Virus record (IMG/VR): IMGVR_UViG_3300033146_003140
Coordinates: 1 to 30,705 of that record
Origin: a virus
Length of the DNA: 30,705 nucleotides
Direction: 5' to 3' (one strand)
Positions 1 through 9,724 of the stretch are shown piece after piece (the first letter of the stretch is position 1; every line of letters begins with the position of its first letter). The notes under the pieces are model-generated. The model was not told the DNA's origin. It ran no database searches and worked only from the letters and a program-made list of their open reading frames with translations. The translations under genes were made by a program, and so were the position numbers.

Positions 1-27
1 CGGTTGAGGGTTTGTTTGAGGGAATTA

Positions 28-50
28 TAGCACCCTGAAAAAGGATGCTA
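28..50. other. Small inverted repeat near the left edge
   Basis: The arms TAGCA and TGCTA (28-32 and 46-50) can pair, and CC/GG inside them extends the stem around an A-rich loop. No U-run follows on either strand, so a terminator is not clear. The rest of 1-105 is AT-rich, with no gene or motif I can support. Confidence 0.3.
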
Positions 51-107
51 AGAATGAGAATAAATAATATAAGAATAAATACACTGTCAATGTTATTGAG
101 TAAACTG

Positions 108-195
108 TTGAGTGATGAAAAGTTCATCAGTCTTTTTATTGAGTGATGTGTAAGGCATCAGTCTTTTTACTGAGTGATGCTTGTCATCAGTCTAA
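108..195. repeat. Three tandem hairpin repeats (GAGTGATG-N5-7-CATCAGTC)
   Basis: Three copies of a roughly 30-bp unit follow each other. Each has the form TGAGTGATG, a short variable loop (AAAAGT, TGTAAGG, CTTGT), then CATCAGTCT. In each, TGATG pairs with CATCA, and the first copy extends to TGATGAA/TTCATCA. The first two are followed by a TTTTTA tract when read rightward, so on the plus strand they look like weak stacked terminators. Read leftward they lie directly downstream of a CCGATATA motif at 200-209. The stems are conserved and the loops vary, which suggests the structure matters. They could be terminators, processing or protein-binding hairpins, or iterons. No leader, cas genes or spacer-length unique sequence accompanies them, so this is not a CRISPR array. 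Confidence 0.6.
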
Positions 196-199
196 TGAC

Positions 200-209
200 G
201 TATATCGGG
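200..209 (-). promoter_or_regulatory. CCGATATA promoter-like motif, leftward
   Basis: The minus strand reads CCCGATATAC here. It matches the motif found before many genes of this phage. It points left into the hairpin repeats and lies at the downstream end of the candidate structured RNA. No gene start follows within the window, so its target is unknown. Confidence 0.4.
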
Positions 210-640
210 ACGCAAGTTCTCAGCCATGTCTGGCCAGGTTTGATGCAAGGGGTTACGTTGTCTTGTTTCTTCCATGAAAAGGAATATACCTGTTATAGCG
301 TCAGAAAGGCTTTTCTCCAGGAACGGAGCGACTTATCTGGGAGTCTGACCACGCAACGGTCACTAGGCCGAATCTCCATCGAAATAGGGCACATATCCGG
401 GGCCGCCTAAAGAACTTTCGTTCCCGAGGCGGGGTCTTTCCAAAATCTCGAAAAGAATCTTCAAAAAGAATCTTCAGAAAACATTGGAAAGCACCACAGT
501 TTTATGTTTTTAAACTTATCTGATATACCTTTGAAAAGCTCCCAGAAGCCAACTTCCAAAGATTCAGACAGGGTTTAGAGGCACTGATTGACCCCCTTTT
601 ATTGATAGCAGTGACACACATTCTCTATCAAGACATTGTC
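210..640 (-). ncRNA. Candidate structured noncoding RNA, leftward
   Basis: This stretch carries no convincing protein gene and is richer in G and C than its surroundings. On the minus strand it folds by eye into several hairpins. TTGATAG/CTATCAA pair at 602-631. CTTTGGAAG/CTTTTCAAAG, with an inner GCTT-CTGG-GAGC, lies at 529-561. CCGCCT/AGGCGG encloses GAAC-GAAA-GUUC at about 401-430. TGACC/GGTCA, CTCC/GGAG and GCCA-GACA-TGGC follow, the last enclosed by ACGUAA/UUGCGU. The GAAA loop is a GNRA tetraloop only on the minus strand. Two CGATATA motifs pointing left (641-655 and 673-690) lie just upstream in that orientation. I do not recognise the RNA family, and the ends are approximate. It is not a tRNA, tmRNA or RNase P RNA that I can identify. 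Confidence 0.5.
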
Positions 641-655
641 TCTAAATATATATCG
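641..655 (-). promoter_or_regulatory. CGATATA promoter-like motif, leftward (proximal copy)
   Basis: The minus strand reads CGATATATATTTAGA followed by GACAAT. It is the second of two near-identical leftward motifs placed immediately before the candidate structured RNA. With the copy at 673-690 it forms a direct repeat about 34 bp apart, which suggests tandem promoters. Confidence 0.5.
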
Positions 656-672
656 TATTTAAATATATATTG

Positions 673-690
673 TTTCTAAATGTATATCGG
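673..690 (-). promoter_or_regulatory. CCGATATA promoter-like motif, leftward (distal copy)
   Basis: The minus strand reads CCGATATACATTTAGAAA just past the stop codon of the last gene in the leftward operon. Since no protein gene follows downstream, the likely product is the structured RNA at 210-640. Confidence 0.5.
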
Positions 691-699
691 AAATTAGAA

Positions 700-1026
700 T
701 TAAGTTTGCTGAGGTAAAAAAGTTAACAAATGATTAACAAGACTTCTTTTGAGGTCTGAATAATTATTTACGGGGCCTTTTAAAGTTATTGAATATGTGT
801 CCCAAACTTTGTTGATTAAAAGTCTGGCTTCGACACGTGGGAGGTTCCATTCAAGAATCACTATACCAGATTCTCGAAGGTCTTTTTTAATTTCTTTTGG
901 TATAATACCTTTAACATCTCTGGAGGGGGCAGTTCTGGGGTTTCTGCAAAACTCTCCATGATGATTTTTGAATTCACTGAAATCAAACTCAACAGTTTTC
1001 TTTTCAGTCTTCATTTTATGTCTCAT
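700..1026 (-). CDS. Hypothetical protein, last gene of leftward operon
   Basis: A 108-residue soluble protein that I do not recognise. It has a basic N-terminus, one cysteine, no membrane segment, and a C-terminal half likely to be alpha/beta (around ILEWNLPRVEARLLINKVW). Its ATG overlaps the TGA of the preceding gene (ATGA), so translation is probably coupled to that gene. An alternative ATG lies four codons further in. It closes the leftward operon, and two leftward promoter-like motifs follow right after its stop. Real coding status is supported mainly by the tight overlap and by the codon use it shares with its neighbours. Confidence 0.65.
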   Translation of the reverse strand: MRHKMKTEKKTVEFDFSEFKNHHGEFCRNPRTAPSRDVKGIIPKEIKKDLRESGIVILEWNLPRVEARLLINKVWDTYSITLKGPVNNYSDLKRSLVNHLLTFLPQQT

Positions 1027-3657: not shown

Positions 3658-4146
3658 TTATGGAACTCTAAAAGGGCATACTTCATCTACTACTTTGAAT
3701 CCATAAGTTTTACCATTAAAGTTTGTTGAGGCAAGGGCTGTCATCATTTTTTCACATGTTCCTGATTTGAACTTCACATATTTTTCAACAACTTCTTTAG
3801 AAGCTTCGTCAAATTCAAATATAGAGTTTGGGACAACCATCCCATAATTTATTTTAAGCCAATTATCAAATTCTGCCAACAAAAAATAAGACGTTATATA
3901 TTTCATATCGTTTTTATGTAGAATTGAAACTCCCTTTGAGAAAACTGGAGCAGAATAATAATATCCTACTTTTTTTACACTCAAAGCAAAAGTTGATTTT
4001 AGCTCTGAAAGTTTATTTGCATTTAATACAATAGGTGTCAGATACATTAATTTATTGTTGTTATCAAAATCTTTACAAGCTCCTTGTAAGAACTTTTTAG
4101 TGTTCTGGGGTATAGTCTGCCAATCAAGAATATTGTCATTTTTCAT
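3658..4146 (-). CDS. Hypothetical protein, first gene of leftward operon
   Basis: A 162-residue soluble protein of unknown function. It is mixed alpha/beta with several aromatic residues (KVGYYYSAPVFSKG, KYITSYFLLAEFDNW) and three cysteines, and has no signal peptide. The ATG follows AAGGAG at 7 nt. A CCGATATATATTC motif lies only about 15 nt upstream of the ATG, so the 5' leader would be very short. As the first product of the leftward operon it would be made in large amounts. No homologous family comes to mind. Confidence 0.65.
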   Translation of the reverse strand: MKNDNILDWQTIPQNTKKFLQGACKDFDNNNKLMYLTPIVLNANKLSELKSTFALSVKKVGYYYSAPVFSKGVSILHKNDMKYITSYFLLAEFDNWLKINYGMVVPNSIFEFDEASKEVVEKYVKFKSGTCEKMMTALASTNFNGKTYGFKVVDEVCPFRVP

Positions 4147-4160
4147 AGTGCTCTCCTTAT

Positions 4161-4173
4161 GAATATATATCGG
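4161..4173 (-). promoter_or_regulatory. CCGATATA promoter of leftward operon
   Basis: The minus strand reads CCGATATATATTC, ending about 15 nt before the ATG at 4146. It is the only such motif found upstream of the ten leftward genes, so it probably drives the whole operon. No clear -35 element is visible. Confidence 0.6.
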
Positions 4174-8482: not shown

Positions 8483-9724
8483 ATGAAAAATAAAAATATT
8501 AACTTAGTAGTGAAAGAAACTACAACTTTTTTGCCTGAAAACAAAGAAGGTGTAGTAGTAATTTCCGGATATGCAAACAGGTATCTCGATGATGAGGGCA
8601 AGCTTGTAGTAGACAGGTCAGCGGAAAGTGTGCTTCCATCCGGGTATGATATTAAATCGTATATGAAGAACCCTATTCTTCTCTATCAACATAAAGGGGA
8701 CTCTCCTGTTGGGAAAGTAATCAATATTGATATTACACAAAAAGGTTTGTATATCGAAGCCGAAGTTCACAAAGCTATGAGCGAACAAACATATTACGGA
8801 GTAGAAAACGGTATCTTGAAAACATTTTCAATCGGATTCTCTGTAAAAGATGCAACAGAAAATGATGGTGTTTGGTTCTGGACTGCCGTGGAGTTGCTAG
8901 AAGTATCTATTGTTTCAGTTCCGGACAATCAAGAATCTTTGTTTTCTATTTTGACAGATTCTCCATGTAAATCTGGGGTATGTATGTTGGCCAGTCGTGC
9001 AACCTCTGTTAATAAAGTGAAAGAACTCAATAAAACAATTTCTACAATCCAGTGGAAAGAAGTTGATAAGGCAGTTCTAAGAGACAGTATTGAATCAGCA
9101 AATTTGCCGGAAGATGAATTAAAAGATGCGTTTTTGGTAGTGAAAGATTCTAACAAAAAAAGCACATGGAAGTTCCCACATCATACATACAATGAAGAGA
9201 CAAAATCTTTAGAGTTAAATGTAGGTGGCTTGACAAGTGCTTACTCCGCATTTAAAGGGGCTCTTGATAATCTCCCTAAAGAGACTATTCTTGATTGCGT
9301 TGAACATCTAGAAAAACACTTTTCTGAATTGGTCGATAAAGGAATTATCGAAGAGGTTCCCGAAGAACTTCTTAAAATTAAAGAAGGTGCTACAACTATG
9401 AAAAAAGACGCTCAAGATGATTCTCAGCAACCGGATGACAAAAATCCGATAGATACAAAAGAACCAGAGACTACTCCAGCAGATTCTAAAAATGTTGATG
9501 AAGGTAACAGTAAAAATGATGAGCCTGATAAAGGTAAGTCTGATACTCCACCTGCTGACGCTGATAGTAAGGACGAACCTCAAAAGGTTAATATGAATTC
9601 TTTAAAAGAATTTGTAGAAGATGCAAAAAATACATCTGAAGGGCTGAATACCCTGCTAGAAGTATATATGCTTATCGAGTCTACTATTAACGAGGCTCTA
9701 GAAAATCAAAACAATAAGGATTAA
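8483..9724 (+). CDS. Prohead protease with C-terminal extension
   Basis: A 413-residue protein. I use the ATG at 8483 because GGAGAG lies 7 nt upstream; an in-frame ATG at 8468 overlaps that site. Residues about 10-150 match the HK97 prohead protease (U35): VVISGYANRY, IKSYMKNPILLYQHKGDSPVGKV with the catalytic His, and FSIGFSVKD ... VELLEVSIVSVPDN with the Ser region. Residues about 165-290 form a second domain with STWKFPHHTYN, seen as an extension in other phage head proteases. After that comes a long acidic low-complexity stretch (P, D, K, E) and a final helix (about 375-410), which may act as scaffold. The family usually has about 200 residues, so this is a fusion. It ends 2 bases before the capsid gene. 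Confidence 0.88.
   Translation: MKNKNINLVVKETTTFLPENKEGVVVISGYANRYLDDEGKLVVDRSAESVLPSGYDIKSYMKNPILLYQHKGDSPVGKVINIDITQKGLYIEAEVHKAMSEQTYYGVENGILKTFSIGFSVKDATENDGVWFWTAVELLEVSIVSVPDNQESLFSILTDSPCKSGVCMLASRATSVNKVKELNKTISTIQWKEVDKAVLRDSIESANLPEDELKDAFLVVKDSNKKSTWKFPHHTYNEETKSLELNVGGLTSAYSAFKGALDNLPKETILDCVEHLEKHFSELVDKGIIEEVPEELLKIKEGATTMKKDAQDDSQQPDDKNPIDTKEPETTPADSKNVDEGNSKNDEPDKGKSDTPPADADSKDEPQKVNMNSLKEFVEDAKNTSEGLNTLLEVYMLIESTINEALENQNNKD

Follow-up and report, generated by a model that had tools for sequence, protein, structure and literature searches.

A tightly packed phage fragment has a single long noncoding gap, from the leftward gene that ends at 700 to the left contig end; does this gap encode an RNA? 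The gap belongs to IMGVR_UViG_3300033146_003140, a virus contig of 30.7 kb without end repeats that is probably a fragment. By the window we mean the whole stretch of this DNA that was analysed, 30,705 nt in length. The terminase and major capsid protein of the window are distantly related to those of T5-like phages, at roughly 23-30% identity, and the RNA region adjoins the head and tail genes of this T5-like phage. Scans of viral contigs with alignments of the terminase, portal and capsid proteins revealed closer relatives, which are labelled G002, G003, etc. A profile search of genome contigs with the portal and capsid alignments found no relatives. Six of the closer relatives are 69-90 kb long, and the window is therefore probably a third or so of the genome.

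An earlier note, made from the letters of the DNA, had proposed a large structured RNA on the minus strand of 210-640, in a stretch without a credible protein gene and with a GC content above that of the surroundings. Both observations on the composition of the region hold. The gap listing gives 411-699, to which we added the plus-strand ORF at 174-410 on the basis of its non-coding codon usage. This is the sole ORF longer than 60 amino acids in the region and scores -0.43 bits per codon when judged by the phage's own codon usage, whereas nine small genes nearby score -0.01 to +0.41. The leftward ORFs are all shorter than 40 amino acids, and examination of the short ORFs in the RNA region revealed no credible one, which leaves 200-690 without a credible gene. 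The GC content is 0.443 over 210-640 and 0.494 over 200-460, against 0.347 for the whole window. An RNA in this position is bounded on the right by the gene at 700 and a promoter-like array and is open on the left, with at most ~640 nt available in the contig, the left end of which is 200 nt beyond the RNA region. The features recognised here are:

205..641, minus strand: presumed noncoding transcript of ~430 nt with both ends predicted; no credible ORF, Rfam match or leftward terminator
635..689, minus strand: three 17-bp units in an upstream array, with TCTAAATATATATCGTA as the plus-strand consensus; putative tandem promoters of the RNA
511..577, minus strand: hairpin H1, ~22 pairs, loop asymmetric; z -2.81, complement -0.91; pair probabilities 0.77-0.98
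433..495, minus strand: hairpin H2, ~25 pairs with a 13-nt direct repeat inside; z -4.37; mean pair probability 0.90-0.95
403..432, minus strand: hairpin H3, 12 pairs with a GAAA (GNRA) tetraloop; z -4.12; mean pair probability 0.92
205..399, minus strand: GC-rich 3′ half without excess secondary structure, z +0.11
201..207, minus strand: further leftward CGATATA at the far (left) edge of the RNA region
108..193, plus strand: array of 31-nt hairpin units in tandem, with TTTTTA after the first two; resembles terminators of rightward transcription
24..51, minus strand: sigma-70-like promoter TTAGCA-16-TATAAT, its second hexamer preceded by TG; overlaps a 9-bp hairpin

The three hairpins are adjacent on the minus strand, at 403-577, and their mean pair probabilities are mostly 0.86-0.98. 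The complements of H2 and H3 have z values of -3.7 and -3.5. In H3 two pairs are G-U only in the leftward reading and the GAAA loop likewise exists only leftward, as had been noticed earlier. The minus strand of the 181 nt at 400-580 folds with z -4.72, against -2.61 for the plus strand, and 0 of 200 shuffles were as good; the region had been picked for its hairpins before testing, so these shuffle z values are somewhat flattering and a sampled background is the fairer yardstick. For this background we took 119 places elsewhere in the window on both strands, giving 238 strand-windows. In this run the minus strand of 400-580 reached z -5.4 while the best of the 238 other strand-windows reached -3.9, and the strand difference of 2.6 exceeds the 95% point of the background but not the 99% point. 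The GC-rich 3′ half, 205-399, has an ordinary folding energy. When judged by folding beyond composition, strand specificity and noncoding character, 400-580 behaves as a structured noncoding RNA, whereas 205-399 does not. The earlier count of at least six hairpins is thus upheld for H1-H3, which go beyond chance, and not for the smaller hairpins of 205-399. Similarly, the preference for the minus strand is confirmed at 400-580, whereas over the whole 471 nt neither strand folds better than the other (z -2.3 and -2.4). The domain demonstrable as RNA spans ~180 nt and makes up the 5′ end of the presumed transcript.

Two leftward CGATATA motifs had been reported directly upstream, and they are indeed present at 649-655 and 683-689, as exact copies within the three-unit array, together with a degenerate CAATATA at 666-672. 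CGATATA is the most over-represented 7-mer of the window, with 17 copies against ~1.85 expected, about ninefold. Most copies are on the plus strand, and many are found shortly upstream of virion-gene starts. In addition to those already listed they include:

5092, 7021, 8445, 11018, 12296 and 12758: examples among the 17 copies of CGATATA, preceding virion genes
4166-4172, minus strand: leftward CGATATA preceding the leftward gene at 4146
8750-8756, minus strand: leftward CGATATA within a gene

Counted across the seven motif-using records (the window, G006, G007, G010, G011, G012 and G018), 30 of the 66 copies are situated 6-60 nt upstream of an ORF start, where ~2 would be expected. Outside the window, the copies preceding ORF starts are almost all at a distance of 33-41 nt, and CGATATA is nearly always on the virion-gene strand. 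The motif behaves like a phage promoter core, and because it is both over-represented and spaced before virion-gene starts it looks like the core of a late promoter, the late class being putative. The window is unusual among the motif-using records in having leftward copies, and those beside the RNA are notable because copies elsewhere are nearly all on the virion-gene strand. It is in this sense that the array at 635-689 may function as a promoter, with the RNA starting near 641.

To the left of the RNA region the tandem units at 108-193 may terminate rightward transcription; they were not listed by the terminator scan, and their stems are A+T-rich and interrupted. The promoter-like site at 24-51 probably serves a gene beyond the contig end. 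The inverted repeat of the hairpin that it overlaps is placed as an operator might be. The terminator scan revealed no recognisable leftward terminator between the RNA region and the left end of the contig, and the 3′ end of the RNA near 205 is therefore putative. A different explanation, which we consider unlikely, is that the RNA belongs to a leftward gene beyond the left contig end as its long structured 5′ leader, acting in cis in the manner of a riboswitch or attenuator. The contig end 200 nt further on, the missing leftward terminator and the additional leftward CGATATA at 201-207 would all suit a leader, but the separate sigma-70-like promoter at 24-51 would serve such a gene, a leader of more than 600 nt would be unusual for a compact phage, and the RNA that we describe below in G003 is followed by a tRNA and not by a leader's gene.

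The earlier note had not recognised a family for this RNA, and neither did our searches. At the gathering score an Rfam search of the window matched no family, GOLLD and ROOL included, and a search of 1-800 up to E <= 5 returned noise only (SNORD124, rivX and CC2171). A group I intron and RNase P were also considered and set aside, the absence of an Rfam match being the sole evidence bearing on either. The Rfam search of the relatives returned tRNAs only, and the tRNA and tmRNA search of the 30.7-kb window, which ends 200 nt past the RNA region, returned none. Comparison of the RNA region with phages and plasmids by blastn gave no real match, and exact DNA patterns taken from the RNA gave either no match in viral contigs or seven chance matches without further similarity. 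A match in G002 at E 0.0025 was rejected as chance, being located inside an apparent protein gene with flanks that show no similarity. No homologue of the window RNA was found in the phages, plasmids and viral contigs searched. Antisense pairing of the RNA to the phage's own genes was not above that of shuffles.

Large phage noncoding RNAs such as GOLLD and ROOL, which assemble into homo-oligomeric cages, have striking structures but no known role in infection. Expression of GOLLD goes up during phage lysis, many GOLLD members exceed 800 nt, and ROOL is often located near tRNA islands (PMC12286853). The window RNA resembles both in being phage-encoded, noncoding and structured, and would share with GOLLD a late role, here predicted. 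In contrast to GOLLD, however, it has a presumed length of ~430 nt, is demonstrably structured over ~180 nt only, and has no match to the covariance model, which represents the conserved 3′ region, either at the gathering score or at E 5 (1-800). The window RNA also has no match to the ROOL covariance model, and it differs from both families, which frequently occur close to phage tRNAs, in that there is no tRNA in the 30.7-kb window, the contig stopping 200 nt beyond the region. Membership in GOLLD or ROOL is not supported. What stands of the original suggestion, a large ornate RNA like these two or else a regulatory transcript, is a leftward structured noncoding RNA with promoter-type motifs upstream; beyond their common status as phage noncoding RNAs, its likeness to GOLLD and ROOL is not supported.

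Two of the related phages carry a noncoding element beyond the terminase side of their portal and capsid genes:

G002 79811-80360 (L113:1990-2260), plus strand: noncoding element on the strand opposite to the portal and capsid genes
G003 75370-76065 (L117:16965-17200), minus strand: noncoding element on the strand opposite to the portal and capsid genes

The place corresponds to that of the window RNA in a loose sense, being much farther from the terminase and having no neighbouring gene in common with the window. The two copies are 80% identical over 110 nt and 81% over 64 nt. Their alignment of 274 columns contains 60 pairs, with 16 two-sided changes and 0 broken pairs, against 0-1 two-sided changes in slid versions, although this covariation is partly built in, as these two sequences also served to derive the structure. 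Consensus folding gave z of about -7 on the strand of the element and -6 on the other. In G003 the element has a TTGACT-17-TATAAT promoter upstream and a tRNA-Arg directly after it, and Rfam detected nothing in the element but the tRNA. Four extra matches to the pattern of this RNA were discarded as chance, with no similarity outside the pattern. The element is a new RNA and is better supported than that of the window. The two RNAs share a corresponding region, the relative strand, membership of the same phage group (at a distance), the lack of an Rfam match and, in G003, a dedicated promoter. They differ in the association with a tRNA and a host-type promoter seen in G003, and they have no detectable homology in sequence or model. 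Local similarity between them was not above shuffles, and there was no covariance-model match in either direction; with filters off, the model built from the G002 and G003 copies scored at best 2.6 bits in window 1-1000, against 281-324 for its members. The covarying RNA shows that an RNA structure under selection can occupy the corresponding place in the genome.

In another two relatives the corresponding place looks different. About 2 kb past their homologue of gene 2495-2749 of the window, G011 and G012 have a conserved noncoding stretch, 73% identical over 605 nt, that is possibly a replication origin:

G011:37908-38490 (L171/L172) and G012:61030-61632 (L178): conserved and noncoding, with repeats of TTATTCACA/TGTGAATAA-like words and then A+T-rich repeats

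Consensus folding of this stretch showed no RNA signal. Together with the three 17-bp direct repeats that adjoin inverted repeats in the window, this conserved place with its TTATTCACA-like words would be consistent with a region that acts as DNA, a replication origin or control region in which the A+T-rich array provides iterons or an unwinding element and the inverted repeats are protein sites. We regard this as improbable, since the units of the array carry a motif found genome-wide before virion genes, DnaA-box-like words form no cluster in 200-690, and the strand asymmetry in folding is not expected from a DNA element. Least probable is a non-functional spacer or the remnant of a lost gene, with hairpins that are accidental or derive from transcription boundaries, which the failure of all searches to find a homologue, the chance-level folding of the left half and the adjoining terminator-like repeats would allow, but which sits poorly with a gap that is the sole long one in so densely packed a fragment and has raised GC, with 400-580 being the best-folding 181-nt stretch among those sampled, and with tandem promoter motifs that point into the region.

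The stretch is probably an orphan phage noncoding RNA with a putative function, and the explanation that we favour, with slightly better than even confidence, is that ~641 to ~205 of the window encodes a structured leftward noncoding RNA of this T5-like phage. The computed basis is the absence of credible coding, the strand-specific domain at 577-403 and a promoter-like motif repeated two to three times upstream and pointing inward. In favour of an RNA we count the fold of H1-H3, the non-coding codon usage, the CGATATA enrichment and the covarying RNA in the corresponding region of G002 and G003; against it we count the lack of a homologue, the left half with no excess structure, the equal folding of the two strands at full length, the absence of a recognisable leftward terminator and the fact that the G002 and G003 RNA has no detectable homology to it. 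Transcription would start near 641 from the tandem CGATATA promoters when the virion genes are expressed, and the ~430-nt RNA would accumulate as a stable transcript acting in trans, late accumulation and trans action being suggested by the promoter class and by analogy with GOLLD. Hairpins H1-H3 may form a protected 5′ domain, with the GNRA loop of H3 serving to dock a partner or to make a tertiary contact, and the GC-rich 3′ half may bind a partner or be folded less regularly. The terminator-like tandem array at 108-193 would keep rightward transcription out. Such a mode of working would be the one assumed for GOLLD and ROOL, without membership in either.

Much more tentatively, the window RNA may belong to a rapidly evolving class of late phage RNAs, of which each phage would carry one at the corresponding place and which would be replaced, or have diverged beyond recognition, from one related phage to another. 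It is conceivable, with equal reserve, that the tRNA-linked covarying RNA of G002 and G003 is another member and that all do the same job in infection. As an independent example with identifiable late-type promoters in a compact phage, the window RNA would offer a small system for studying the function of such RNAs.

Several observations were made on neighbouring genes. The terminase genes (window:4606-7057) are on the strand of the portal gene, and in G002, G003, G004 and G013 they are on the opposite strand, an inversion between relatives. A small-protein gene, at window:5142-5714 and G004:81574-82086, has a signal-peptide-like start and resembles an outer-membrane protein; in G004 it adjoins the noncoding and tRNA region, in the window the terminase. 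In one relative an ORF situated amid tail genes, at L006:16080-17123, reads, as judged by its sequence only, like the small subunit of ribonucleotide reductase.
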